64,000 nucleotides of DNA from Heliocidaris erythrogramma (lineage: Eukaryota > Echinodermata > Echinoidea > Camarodonta > Echinometridae): NCBI GenBank assembly GCA_025617745.1, contig CM046869.1, positions 8,606,668-8,670,667 of the forward strand, read 5' to 3'. Both the position numbers and the translations under genes were made by a program. Under the pieces are notes generated by a model, which was given only the letters and a program-made list of their open reading frames with translations, was not told the DNA's origin and searched no databases. Positions within the stretch are counted from its first letter, which is position 1. Every line of letters starts with the position of its first letter. Shown in pieces: positions 1 through 62,168 of this stretch.

Positions 1-994
1 TCTTTTTCTTTCTTTCTTTTCACCTACTCTGGGATATAGTGCCTATTGTCTATTGTCATAACTCTTAAAAATCTATCATCTATTATTACAAAAGACGAAT
101 TTCTATACTGCTATTATCCGAACTTGGTAAAAAAAAAAGGGAATTAAGAAGGAGAACGTTTAAAAGACGAGGAGATCAGGATGTTTAGTGTTTGTAATTA
201 AATTCGTATAGTTTTGAAAATGATTTTATTCCCCCAAGAAGAAAAGAAAGAACGATTTTTCCATTTGCCTTACCTTGTTTTCAACTCCACCCATCAATAT
301 TATGAATACGTCTTCCCATATCGTGGAGGAAAACTAATATATTTCATTCCCCAATGGTATCCGAGAGTTGTTTTTCTCGCAGTGCCCCCGAGGGAAACGG
401 CAGGAATTGAATGTACCGTACCTCCCCGCTTTCTTCATTCATGCCATCCATTGATTCACGATTGTGTTGCCTTCCGCGGTAATAGATTTCTTTAACATCC
501 CTCCTTTGTGTTTCAGTGTCTAAAATATTGAGGAAAACAGTTCAAGAGTGATAAAAGGAGGGGAAAAAATCATGCGGGGGATGGACAGAAATCCAGGAGG
601 GCTATGCTTCTGATACCCAAAAGCTTGACTGTGCCATTGAAGAAATTACTTTCTTACATTTGCTAATTTCACAAATACGCTCTTGATCTCAATTGGGGTA
701 TATTGTTTAACTCATTCATTGCCGATGTCATGTATATGTGACAGATAGACTTGTTCTAAAAGAGTGTGGTATCCATGAAATAGTTTATGGTCATGTTTCA
801 TATGTATAGGGATGGGATTTTTATATGGGTTTGCCTCTGTACCCTATATAGTCGAAATTAAAAAAAAAATCTAAAATGAGGATAACAATAATGAAAAACC
901 TATCCCTAAAATAATGATTTTTTTCCTATTTACTAATAGGAAAAGATAAGAAATGATATGTTAAGTAGTTTTCCGCCCTCCTTGTACTATTTCA
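1..994. other. AT-rich non-coding stretch
   Basis: No gene is supported. The stretch is AT-rich, with scattered A and T runs. The only open frame of note (214-495, 93 codons) has no splice or start context and resembles no family I know. Confidence 0.6.
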
Positions 995-21942: not shown

Positions 21943-22928
21943 TTCAACATTTAAGATAAGTCTGATAGATTGTACGGCCTGACCAAATGTTTGTAATAAG
22001 GGTTACAGTTAAAGCTATTACTTGAATCATTATCAAACAGGACCGGTGTCGAATTAGCCGAAGTTTGGAGGACAAAAAAATACAACGAAATTTTAACTAA
22101 AGTGTCAAAGACTATGAATAAATCTCTTCGGTTAATCGCATTTCGCAGAAAATACATATAGCCTAGTAGTAAGCATATATATAATGCTGAAGAAATCGGG
22201 TCAAGTAGAGTCACCACTAGAATTCTGTAGTCCCGTATATTCGTATCTGTGTTGGTGTTTTTCACCTTATGCGATTTTAGCAATTATTTTTTTAGTTTAA
22301 TTTTGTTTGGATTTCACTGGTCAGGCAAAAAATTTATTGCAAGATTAACAATGCAGTACGATTAAGATATTTTCTTTTTCTTGAAATGCAGCAGCTCTCT
22401 ATCCGAACTCAAAATAACCTCACCTTTAAATGTGAAAATTCATAACATGGTTGCCTCGGTCTCTGATCTTACTAAAGTGAAGATCAGTTTCGCGTGCTGC
22501 AAACCAATAAAGCACCATTAGCTCTGGAATGAAAGCGAAACCGTGAGATTCCGATGGGGTGAGCTCCAGGGATGAAGGGATTGCCATTAGATGCCACTAA
22601 GGTCTCTGATCTACAAGTGATCCGTGGATGCTTTCCGTGATGTACTTTTGCCCGCCATGATTATTATCCCATAGGTTCTGTTAAATCTTACTTCGAGGAA
22701 ATTAATTTTCCATGTGTCAGCATGCATTTGATTTGACTGTCTTGGACATAGGTTATAGTAACATCATTACCAGTATTAAACTATTGTACTCTGAAGTTTT
22801 AACGATATTTATATAACAATATTTTAATTTCTCACCGTATACGTTGCGCTTACGAATTGACGCTTTTAAGAAATTACGACCCTTGACCGTTTTTATTGTG
22901 TCGATCAAATTTGCTTTACCATGTTTAC
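21943..22928. other. Non-coding stretch
   Basis: A GGTCTCTGAT word is repeated at about 22457 and 22601 around a GC-richer patch. Otherwise no feature is supported. Confidence 0.45.
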
Positions 22929-23360
22929 TGTAAAGGATTTAACGTGGAGAAGGTTTACGGTTCACCATGTGTGTTGGTAGGAGGAAAGGGAAAAGGAAAT
23001 TAGAGATGGATAGACGAGAAAGGATGACAAGAGAGAAAAGAAGAAATGATCTTTCGTGACAATGGGTGAAGTCCTGAAAAGGACTGTAGACCAGATGAGA
23101 TGAGATGAGAAGACTTGGTTGATGATCGATGGATGAGCAGCGATGGATTGAGTAGCGAAGGTTTGAGTAGATGAGGCTTGAGTAGGAGGTTACTCGACGT
23201 TTCGGACAGGTTGACTGTCCGTCATCAGGAGTGCTGTCTCGTCTATCCATCTCTAATTTCCTTTTCCCTTTCCTCCTACCAACACACATGGTGAACCGTA
23301 AACCTTCTCCACGTTATAAGCTCCACCATGCAAACCTTCAAAGATCATGTAAAGGATTTA
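22929..23360 (-). mobile_element. Palindromic retro-inserted element with 13-bp TSD and hammerhead motif
   Basis: A perfect 13-bp direct repeat, TGTAAAGGATTTA, flanks the element at 22929-22941 and 23348-23360. Inside, arms 22941-23019 and 23237-23315 are exact reverse complements over 79 bp, starting AACGTGGAGAAGGTTTACGG. A tail beyond the right arm (23316-23347) is absent on the left but present on the left of the sister copy at 61782. Copies are therefore truncated on opposite sides. The spacer holds AGTCCTGAAAAGGACT (23070-23085) and a hammerhead-like fold on the minus strand (23192-23232). The long target duplication fits retrotransposition better than cut-and-paste. A Penelope-like or retrozyme-like origin is inferred. 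Confidence 0.75.
23192..23232 (-). ncRNA. Hammerhead ribozyme-like motif (type I, minimal stem III)
   Basis: On the minus strand, read 5' to 3': stem I strand ACUC; the conserved box CUGAUGA; one extra C; stem II GGACAG/CUGUCC (6 bp) closed by loop UCAAC; the box GAAA; CGUC; then stem I strand GAGU, which pairs exactly with ACUC. A self-complementary ACGU overlaps GAAA and GUC, so stem III could form only between two copies. The predicted cleavage site follows GUC, between + positions 23196 and 23195. Minimal hammerheads with this dimeric stem III are known from Penelope-like elements and animal retrozymes (established knowledge). The unpaired C before stem II departs from the textbook core. 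Activity is untested. Confidence 0.6.
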
Positions 23361-50886: not shown

Positions 50887-52110
50887 GCTTTAACTTTCAG
50901 AATTTAGCAGTATACTGTAACGATTTGTCTTTAAATTGCTTCGTTAAATTGCCTTAAAGGGGTACTCCGGCCTGAAATTAATATGAATTGAATAAATAGA
51001 GTAAAATTAAACAAACAAATCACTGAAAATTTCATCGAAATCGGATGAAAAATAATGAACCTATGGAATTTTAAGTTTTGCATTATTTTGGTAGAACAGT
51101 TATGTGCACGTCATCATGAATATGCAGTGAGTGAGCTGATGATGTCATATCCCCACTTTTTCTTTTGTATTTTATTATATGAAATTGCAATTATTCAAAT
51201 TTTCTGCTCCAAGCCTATAACTAAAAGGACTGACTCCTTATTTAATGTGTAAGTTCATCATTGCTGTAAATTATTTTGTTACAAGGGAGATATTTTTTAT
51301 AGACATGTATGAAAAAATGAAATAATGAAGATTTCATATAATATAGTTAAAAAAGGAAAGTGGGGACGTGACATCATCAGCTCACTCATTACATATTCAT
51401 GATGACATGCATAGAACTGTTTCCCAAAATAATGCAAAACTTAAAAATTCAATAACTTCGTTATTTTTTATCGGATTTCGATGAAATTTTCAGTGTTTTG
51501 CTTGTTTAATTTTAGTCTATTCATTTGATTAATATTATTTTCAGGCCGGAGTACTCCTTTAACATTGTTACACTTTTTGTTGTCTATTGAATGTAATCCA
51601 GCCTTCAGGCTGCCACGTTGGCTGTTTTTTAATAAACCATTCATTTCAATTTCAGTTCAACTTATAAAAGTCCCATTTACAATACAGTCATTATATAGGT
51701 TTGAACCGTAGTGTAAATGAGCCTTGAGAGCGAAATAGTGCGAAATAGAGCACCCAAAGAAACACCCTCCTATATCATTAGGATGCCACTGTTTTATGCT
51801 TTAACTTTCAGAATTCAATTCAACACTCTGTAAAGTTTTGGCTTTGTTCGTATTCTCGTTAAATTGCTTCAACATTGTTATATGTTTCAACTACACTCTT
51901 TGTTGTCTATTGAACGTAATCCAGCCGTCGGGGCTGCCATTATGTTTTAATAAACCATTCAATTCAATTTAATTCAATCCAGTTCAATTCAACTCATAAA
52001 AAGCCCCATTTACACTACAGTCATTATATCTCGACGTTTGAACCCTTGTGTAAATGGGCCTTGTGAGGCAAATAGTGCGAAATAGAGCACCCAAAGAAAC
52101 ACCTCCTATA
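50887..52110. repeat. Tandem duplication of a ~306-bp unit; first copy split by a MITE
   Basis: GCTTTAACTTTCAGAATT, CGTTAAATTGC, TTTGTTGTCTATTGAA, TAATAAACCATTCA, CCCATTTACA, ACAGTCATTATAT and GAAATAGTGCGAAATAGAGC occur in order in both units (from 50887 and from 51798). Without the inserted MITE the period is about 306 bp. Each unit includes a LINE-like 3' tail, so the repeated DNA is probably derived from a retroelement. Confidence 0.8.
50954..51562. mobile_element. TTAA-flanked long-TIR MITE, family T4 (609 bp)
   Basis: Ends are TTAAAGGGGTACTCCGGCCT and, on the other strand, TTAAAGGAGTACTCCGGCCT. The inverted arms extend about 230 bp each with roughly 85 percent match by eye, leaving a spacer of about 130 bp. 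The sister unit of the host duplication has the uninterrupted site (TCAA at 51869-51872 where this copy has TTAA). Confidence 0.9.
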
Positions 52111-54850: not shown

Positions 54851-56034
54851 TACGGGCTGTGTCAAAAATATGTAACGAGATTTTGATTTGCAATATCTTA
54901 AAGAGTACTTAACCATACTCAATGATATTTTGTGCGTAATTTTGTAGTAAGATCAGTTCAATTCCTGGTGAATTCTACAAGGATTTGAGTTCACACAACA
55001 AAGTTATGATCATATTTTGTAAAATGTAGCATTTTCCAAATACCTGAACATTTTGTGGCAAGCTGTCAAATTAATGTCATTTCTTGTTTTAAAAATAGGG
55101 TGTTAAAAAGAATTAGGATTAATTTCATTTACACAAACATTAAGATATTTTAGAGTCTTTACCATCTCTTTTATGGAGGCATAGTGACCATATCAAATGA
55201 AATCAAACTATAAGGGAAAAATCTAATGAACATGTTAACCGGGCATGTTGGCTCAGTTGATTAGAGCACCCGCCTCATGAACGGGAGGTCGTGGGTTCAA
55301 ACCCCGGCCGAGTCATACCAAAGACTTCAAAAATGGGACCTTCTGCTTTCTAGCCAGGCACTCGGCATATTCGAATGGAGAAGGGTAATAATAACATATT
55401 ATGTTATGCAGGGCCCGCTGGAAGAGCAGTTTGATAATTGAAGTGGCTACCCTGGGTAAATAAAACGTTATTATTATCATTATTATTATTAAGGAATAGA
55501 TAGATAGATCTTCTGAGAAATGTTTAGTGTTTGTTGCTTAACTTGAAAAAAAAAATTAAAACAAAGATGGGTCTTTTCCTACAGTACATTGCTCACGCCA
55601 TTATGATTGAAATATAAATAAGTTGAAGACGTACATAAATTACCAGTTGAATAAAAAACTTCGTGGCATACTTTCTTGTGATTCTGGTACTTCAACGATA
55701 TTTTGAATGCATATTCAGAAGAATTTACACATGAAATACCACTCTGAAATGTGTCAGTGATGATTTTACCGCGAAGATATGAGTTAGAATGACTTCAATG
55801 GAAAGTTTGTAGGGAAATCAGAAAAGACAGGTCAACGCTTATTGTGCACTGATGCTATTCAAAGCGCACTCCTTGAAACATTTGAAAAATGCTACGTTGT
55901 AGTTTTAGCTTAGATCTCTGTGAAATTCATAGTAATTTAGGTAATGCCAATACCACAATACTTAGGAAATGTCAACGAGGATTTTTAAGTACTTTTTAAG
56001 ATTTTGCCAATCAAAATCTTTTAAACACCCCGTA
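54851..56034. mobile_element. Mariner-like TA-flanked non-autonomous element with a nested SINE
   Basis: Left: TA-CGGGCTGTGTC. Right, other strand: TA-CGGGGTGTTT. Pairing continues through AGATTTTGATT, GCAAAATCTTAAA and AGTACTTAA for about 60 bp. TA on both sides fits the Tc1/mariner target rule (established knowledge). Without the SINE at 55239-55491 it is about 930 bp. No transposase frame is seen, so it is a deletion derivative or MITE. Confidence 0.7.
55239..55491 (+). mobile_element. tRNA-derived SINE nested in the mariner-like element
   Basis: A-box TGGCTCAGTTG (55249-55259) and B-box GGTTCAAACC (55294-55303). The anticodon loop position reads CTCATGA. A body (CTAGCCAGGCACTCGGCAT, TGGCTACCCTGGGTAAATAA) and a TTA/TTATCA tail follow. 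The tail and body mark it as a SINE rather than a tRNA gene. Confidence 0.85.
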
Positions 56035-61781: not shown

Positions 61782-62168
61782 TACATGAATAATGATCTTT
61801 GAAGGTTTAGGTTTGCATGGTGGTACTGATAACGTGGAGAAGGCTAACGGTTCACCATGTGGTTAGTCCTGAAAAGGACTATGGAGTAAGAAGAAGAAAG
61901 TGGAGAAAAGTTGAGAGGTGAAGAAAAGGAAAGGCGAGATAGAAATTCAGAGAGTGTAGAAGTAATCTTTCTTGAAAGTGTGAAGTCCTGAAAAGGACTG
62001 TAAGCCAGATGACATGGACGAGAAGGCTGAGAGTGCAGTGGAGAAGACTCGACGTTTCGGACAGGTTGACTGTCCGTCATTATCCACTTTCTTCTTCTTA
62101 CTCCGTATTCCTTTTCAGGACTAACCACATGGTGAACCCTAAGCCTACTCCACGTTACATGAATAATG
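61782..62168 (-). mobile_element. Palindromic retro-inserted element, second copy, dead hammerhead
   Basis: A perfect 13-bp direct repeat, TACATGAATAATG, flanks it (61782-61794 and 62156-62168). Arms of about 75 bp from 61831 and ending at 62155 pair with about seven mismatches. They begin AACGTGGAGAAGGCTAACGG, as in the first copy. The left end carries the tail (ATCTTTGAAGGTTT...) that the first copy has on its right. AGTCCTGAAAAGGACT occurs twice (61865-61880 and 61984-61999). The hairpin GACGTTTCGGACAGG...CTGTCCGTCAT is kept at 62051-62080, but the minus-strand CUGAUGA box reads AUAAUGA and stem I is lost. Confidence 0.75.

Follow-up and report, generated by a model that had tools for sequence, protein, structure and literature searches.

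A head-to-head Penelope-like insertion carrying a variant hammerhead motif in Heliocidaris erythrogramma

The window analysed here is a 64,000-nt stretch of the Heliocidaris erythrogramma genome (assembly GCA_025617745.1, contig CM046869.1, positions 8,606,668 to 8,670,667 of the forward strand), and it holds two related insertions. Positions within the element are given in the reference coordinates of the pLTR at locus L029, in which 0 is the C of CUGAUGA. The first insertion, copy 1, is a 406-bp head-to-head fragment of a Penelope-like element (PLE) on the minus strand (22942..23347), defined by its arms, target duplication and mapping. It lies between exact 13-bp direct repeats of TGTAAAGGATTTA at 22929..22941 and 23348..23360. 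A direct pLTR piece, 97% identical to the L029 pLTR and 94–98% identical to the pLTRs of full copies, covers 22942..23233 on the minus strand (reference -5 to about +290) and contains three 15-bp tandem units of the pLTR, found by repeat analysis (23127..23170, minus strand). The inverted piece (23234..23347, minus strand; reference 321 to 206 by mapping) includes a 33-bp tail, 23315..23347 on the same strand, which sequence and locus comparison place at one end only. The inverted arms, 22940-23022 and 23234-23316, are about 81 bp long and 99% complementary. Together with the 13-bp direct repeat on both sides they bear out the initial annotation, which had described a palindromic mobile element.

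Copy 2 (61795..62155, minus strand) is a diverged relative of copy 1. Its arms lie at 61830-61907 and 62080-62157 (92%), its tail is at the opposite end, and it is flanked by exact 13-bp direct repeats of TACATGAATAATG at 61782..61794 and 62156..62168. Both copies keep a histone-type stem-loop, AGUCCUUUUCAGGACU, which reads AGTCCTGAAAAGGACT on the plus strand. In copy 1 it occupies 23063..23085 on the minus strand, is followed by UCACCCA and matches Rfam Histone3 with 16.3 bits, below the cut-off of 34; in copy 2 it lies at 61984-61999, and the arms of copy 2 repeat it near 61865 and 62109. A 30-nt pattern over the stem-loop had 1312 genome matches at up to three mismatches and 0 in the control, and our literature search on histone stem-loops in retroelements returned nothing on point, judged by title. 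The open frames over the two copies, of 124 and 125 aa, had no Pfam match and are taken as pyrimidine-rich open frames. Elsewhere in the window, 50954-51562 is another large inverted repeat, with arms of 250 nt that are 80% complementary and 109 nt apart. An Rfam tRNA match of 36.2 bits at 55242-55315 is perhaps a tRNA-derived repeat; ARAGORN found no tRNA there or elsewhere in the window.

The hammerhead-like motif, located by string match and descriptor search, comprises 41 nt of the direct piece of copy 1 (23192..23232, minus strand) and reads ACUC-CUGAUGA-C-GGACAG-UCAAC-CUGUCC-GAAA-CGUC-GAGU. ACUC and GAGU form a 4-bp stem I, both the CUGAUGA and the GAAA box are present, and GGACAG and CUGUCC form a 6-bp stem II with the loop UCAAC. 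GUC stands directly before the predicted cut, between 23196 and 23195; cleavage there would leave an RNA 5' end at GAGUAACC (+33). The motif also contains the self-complementary ACGU, which makes a dimeric stem III possible. All letters and pairings listed in the initial annotation proved exact to the base, and the unpaired C that it had entered as a caveat is real. This extra C lies at 23221 (minus strand), between CUGAUGA and stem II, as seen in sequence, fold and sampled copies. Thus the motif has the CUGANGA and GAAA boxes, the NUH site and stem I of a minimal type I hammerhead, but its stem II does not abut A9 and G12. In the sampled copies the extra nucleotide is C in 54 of 54 letters, one further copy having a deletion at that place, and a genome search for the motif without it, allowing up to one mismatch, found 0 copies (control 0).

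Folding predictions for the motif favour another structure. In the single-molecule fold of lowest energy, which is not a hammerhead, G12 of GAAA is paired to the extra C (P 0.99), stem I forms with P of about 0.08, and an alternative stable hairpin closes at +32 (GAUG/CGUC). A double-hammerhead dimer, for which ACGU is present, was computed at -22.3 versus -16.1 for each of two monomers, and so comes out less stable than the two taken together. Rfam listed no hammerhead at gathering scores in the whole window and none in 22900-23340 up to E=10; a missing covariance match is one of the results that the initial annotation had named as speaking against its reading. We infer that the lack of a stem III, together with the additional C, accounts for part of this.

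The absence of an Rfam match is what would be expected if the motif resembled a hammerhead by chance. Loose patterns of the layout also had 19 matches in viral and bacterial records (2 in viral contigs and 17 in genome contigs), at least three of them with arms, and the bare layout can therefore arise by chance in huge collections. These three bacterial or archaeal matches (L004:7244-7275, L008:45-74 and L010:864-895) have complementary arms from CTGATGA to GAAA by eye and are probably coding sequence. By eye, in the motif context of all 19 and the flanks of the first 2, the matches do not share the flanks of the family, and two other hammerhead patterns had 0 matches in the viral and bacterial collections. 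On the other side, a hammerhead descriptor (CUGANGA, 0–1 extra nucleotides, a stem II no shorter than 4 bp, GAAA, a U-H site and a 4-bp stem I) had one match in the 64 kb, namely this motif, and 0 in 300 shuffled windows, both strands being searched. The motif has hundreds of copies in the genome, and such motifs have been reported in PLEs, according to excerpts of PMC7761336 and PMC6155905. We rejected pure chance on the shuffled windows and the genomic copy number, and regard it as very improbable. Because stem II does not abut the core and Rfam gives no match, we call the motif a hammerhead-like variant rather than a confirmed ribozyme. Curators have rejected hammerhead matches with mispairs adjoining the core, as an excerpt of PMC3088659 states. 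The site itself is a Penelope insertion carrying a variant hammerhead.

The 38-mer CTGATGA...GAGTA occurs in 847 copies (427+420) at up to three mismatches in the 1.06-Gb genome, with 0 in the control; the 100 places listed for it are exact matches on the first contigs only. The initial annotation had looked to other genomic copies for conservation of the first box and stem I, and both are conserved: the 38-mer is kept in hundreds of copies, and the 176 letters read for the 5' strand of stem I in the sampled copies include no substitution. At L028 and L029 two direct motifs lie 3.13-3.14 kb apart with an open frame between them, and the frames at L028, L029 and L041 match RVT_1 (E 5.8e-11, 7.1e-12 and 6e-12, respectively). 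The parent unit of about 3.1 kb thus consists of motif, pLTR, tail with ATG, and RT ORF, followed by a further motif and pLTR. The L029 ORF begins with MQTFKDH at an ATG within the 33-bp tail, the tail of full copies holding the ORF start, and its stop, TGA TGA, lies inside the CTGATGA of the next repeat. No GIY-YIG domain was matched by Pfam or by PDB sequence search, and a GIY-YIG motif (VYKIPCDCGKVYIGETG...LKEH) was recognised by eye only.

Three features of PLEs are found in this family. An RT ORF lies between pLTRs (between the direct motifs of L028 and L029), a 30-40-bp tail is present at one end in 26 of 30 two-ended inserts, and target-site duplications are variable, with an exact 13 bp in both window copies and candidates of 11-14 bp at 21 of 60 loci, including three duplicates. 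Judged from its sequence, the parent layout is that of endonuclease-bearing PLEs (PMC11167929 and the available text of PMC3846280), and the motif in the window appears to be inherited from the 3.1-kb parent. The initial annotation had pointed to a Penelope-like element or a retrozyme. The RT-coding parents uphold the former; we rejected a metazoan retrozyme, as the window element is a head-to-head fragment of a coding element with a single minimal motif. Several locus pairs have the same segment maps, namely L044/L048, L050/L051, L052/L053 and L057/L058, each 16 to 168 kb apart on one contig, and L100/L104, 16.8 Mb apart on one contig, pointing to segmental or assembly duplication. At L146 (G000:C3:24521290-24521529) three stem-loop matches 105 nt apart on one strand form a tandem array from part of the pLTR, and the flank of this array is common to L111 and L140.

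Mapping on L029 shows that each fetched inverted pair consists of two 3' pieces in head-to-head orientation; the inner joins vary, and the outer ends lie at either about +290 or about +321. The ends were read in loci L028-L107 and window copy 1; the duplicates L048, L051, L053, L058 and L104 were dropped, L020-L027 were not used, and L047 and L049, which are the same site, are not among the 30 two-ended inserts. In 26 of the 30, one end lies at +285..298 and the other at +313 or beyond, which places the tail at exactly one end. The two orientations are equally frequent, with 13 inserts in the order pLTR-end/tail and 13 in the order tail/pLTR-end; three are unclear (L033, L057 and L107) and one, L106, is rearranged and tailless. 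If ends were chosen independently and evenly, 26 mixed inserts out of 26 clear ones would have a probability of 1.5e-8, a figure that leaves out L106. Nine more two-ended inserts are all mixed by eye (L110, L111, L113, L116, L118, L120, L123, L127 and L128).

Long inverted arms and a target duplication would also fit a DNA transposon (or MITE) bounded by terminal inverted repeats. However, the arm length differs between copies, the junctions vary, one end carries an extra 31-33 bp, and the parents of the family carry an RT, which contradicts this reading. We rejected it on the one-sided tail and the copy-specific arm lengths, and give it next to no credence. Under the mechanism that we favour, the protein of the element would cut both target strands and reverse transcription would start on each. 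Two internal sites, +290 and +321 in the reference and about 31 nt from each other, would serve as starting points, one for each strand. Both cDNAs would run toward the RNA 5' end, stopping there or earlier; once joined head to head, they would form a single-tailed palindrome flanked by a target duplication of about 12-13 bp. The palindrome, the tail and the duplication would be explained together because reverse transcription would start once per strand. In a lizard PLE, likewise, both strands are cut and extended by the protein, which initiates at two neighbouring internal sites (PMC11167929).

The position at which such cDNAs end was studied in copies sampled by the stem-loop, which lies 136 nt downstream of the C of CUGAUGA, so that they were not chosen by the motif. 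Of the 1312 stem-loop matches 100 were listed, and 99 of these were read; they gave 58 distinct junctions at or downstream of -72, to which the statistics are confined. Where repeats had a flank in common they were merged manually, which removed L051, L134, L140 and L146; as some loci have two arms (e.g. L042, L045, L110, L116, L120, L127, L130 and L142), the junction events are not fully independent. The 5' junctions concentrate at -7..+6, with 18 of 58 against 2.75 expected, and three are exactly at -4, two at L042 and one at L075. At L042 both arms end at -4 and the first ~14 nt are copied several times in between: several partial copies of ACTCCTGATGACGG (L042:540-680) separate the head-to-head arms, as if the template 5' end had been re-copied and the enzyme had stuttered there. 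ATAAAA, which is TATA-like, lies 31 nt upstream of the A at -4, and this A stands in the context TCACTC.

From these features we infer that the RNA 5' end is probably the A at -4 (ACUCCUGAUGA), the first base of hammerhead stem I. The RNA would start four bases before CUGAUGA, so that its first 41 nt would be the hammerhead motif, and in tandem copies the promoter would lie within the 3' end of the upstream ORF. Against an RNA start, the pile-up at -4 could be a strong stop instead, and a second small group of junctions at -12..-17 comes partly from a SINE inserted there. This SINE has a 7SL-like head and an (AC)n end and sits at about -14/-10, upstream of the hammerhead. In L087 (838-1020) it has AGCAC on both sides and matches Rfam Metazoa_SRP with 34.3 bits (E 1.3e-7), below the family cut-off of 70. 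The SINE or its end is also present in L059, L061, L062, L084, L086, L089 and L093, and the L086 insert seems to begin at its first bases.

Overall, an RNA start at the motif, two-site priming and head-to-head joining of pieces from a PLE parent of about 3.1 kb are the best explanation of these inserts, and we consider this mechanism probable. Further points weigh against it: duplication candidates of 11-14 bp were seen at only 21 of the 60 loci, the GIY-YIG motif was recognised by eye alone, and the one-tail rule is unlike the lizard PLE, which in vitro showed no strand difference in start site (PMC11167929). The one-tail rule here therefore calls for some additional cause. In the texts that were searchable, which did not include the key papers, we found no earlier mention that RNA starts at the hammerhead of a PLE or that a one-tail rule holds strictly, and we make no claim of absence. 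For a plant retrozyme, a transcription start is reported to have been mapped (PMC12029980).

The initial annotation had further proposed that the element processes its own RNA, and the evidence on this point is divided. Both boxes, stem I and the GUC are there, a dimeric stem III is conceivable, and the motif may be a working self-cleaving hammerhead, either alone, as an ACGU dimer or with the help of the element's protein, whose cut RNAs starting with GAGU would serve as templates; we give this reading somewhat less than an even chance. Among 35 read-through copies, 32 are identical over the 41 nt and the other three have one substitution each. Substitutions in the motif amount to 0.44% versus 0.64-4.1% in the next pLTR stretches, which makes it the least variable of those compared (93 sites). 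Only one observation hints directly at cleavage, namely that insertion 5' ends are modestly over-represented at the predicted cut: nine junctions fall at +30..+40 against 2.16 expected (P 0.0004), although a scan over any place gives only P 0.06, and the arms of L142 end at +33 and +34. Against cleavage, exact 30-mer counts fall from 497 to 456 across +27..33 and from 456 to 431 across +20..26, steps of 41 versus 25 and a modest difference. From the +26 list, 12 of the 100 sites of the +33 list are missing; three of these have junctions at +30..33 (L123, L125 and L142), two are mutated (L135 and L147), two lie in the rearranged L139 and five were not fetched. Over the same range, the +19 list lacks 8 of the 89 sites that the +26 list contains.

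Other observations also argue against cleavage. Deletions number 42 in the motif, 43 in -40..-5 and 47 in +37..60, and are no less common inside the motif than beside it. The extra C is fixed and its predicted pairing with G12, like the computed dimer value, does not favour the hammerhead; a C inserted at this place was strongly harmful in a viroid hammerhead, according to the available part of PMC3705267. The hammerhead of the lizard PLE cuts only with protein present, which would suit a protein-helped motif, but no reads of that element began or ended at the cut and insertion proceeded without need of cutting (PMC11167929). The remnant of the motif in copy 2 (62047..62080, minus strand) lost the first three letters of the first box and the 5' strand of stem I at the junction, so that C3 and G5 are gone, and is identical from +3 to +36 (34/34). 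This last observation is in line with a motif that no longer cleaves, in which the hairpin would be retained for a promoter-proximal role or for binding protein, while the excess at +33 would reflect reverse transcriptase stopping at the hairpin base. To this reading we assign slightly less than an even chance. The alternative hairpin closing at +32 is stable, and divergence is low beyond the motif too (0.70% in -40..-5 and 0.64% in +37..60). However, no comparable excess of ends is seen just 3' of the other stem-loop in a small sample of two-ended-insert junctions judged by eye, and without inheritance the exact hammerhead layout would have to be coincidental.

We place cleavage in vivo, as read from these sequences, at a little under one half. 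The motif may remove the first 37 nt from some RNAs, probably slowly or with the help of a protein. The insertion ends at -4 point to frequent use of uncut RNA as template. One could also combine the two pile-ups, with a capped RNA starting at -4 and a cleaved, uncapped RNA starting at +33 both used as templates, the one-tail rule meaning that each of the two reverse-transcription start sites is tied to one target strand, and the extra-C hammerhead acting as a natural protein-dependent ribozyme. The cap would then sit on the first base of stem I, cleavage would remove a capped 37-nt leader, and both pile-ups would be recorded in the inserts; we consider this combination unlikely.

Hundreds of copies make the insertion ends of this family a kind of fossil record, both of RNA 5' ends and of where reverse transcription began. 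By this record the RNA probably starts at the motif, and cut RNA may at times have been the template; the record also turns an optional tail into a near-strict rule of one per insert, in need of explanation. Minimal type I hammerheads have reportedly been described in Penelope/Poseidon-type PLEs, by Cervera & de la Pena in 2014 and Lunse et al. in 2017. As far as the available texts on these elements go, the sea urchin family is like them in its pLTR-ORF-pLTR order, RT, one-sided 30-40-bp tail, target duplications, inverted pLTR copies and stem III-less hammerhead with a dimer route, and unlike them in the fixed extra C after CUGAUGA and in a motif that would form the RNA 5' end. The role of the hammerhead in PLEs was called a mystery in a 2020 review (PMC7761336, in excerpt). 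In the lizard PLE the ORF begins at stem II (PMC11167929), whereas here the motif opens the pLTR and holds the stop of the previous ORF. According to the available text of PMC3846280, Penelope Pen2a of Adineta vaga has a 9-bp target-site duplication and a 31-bp tail on one inverted pLTR; as here, inverted pLTRs bound the insert and one has the tail, and very short versions of 361-406 bp are found here in addition. The word hammerhead has 0 occurrences in the main text of that paper. The CChMVd (+) hammerhead of a plant viroid likewise has one extra nucleotide between A9 and stem II, which is A there and C here (PMC3705267, in part). Finally, the window insertions share with metazoan retrozymes, as portrayed in excerpts of PMC7229834, the form of a small hammerhead-bearing element, but retrozymes are non-autonomous small repeats with canonical hammerheads, whereas the element described here is a piece of a coding PLE and its hammerhead is minimal.
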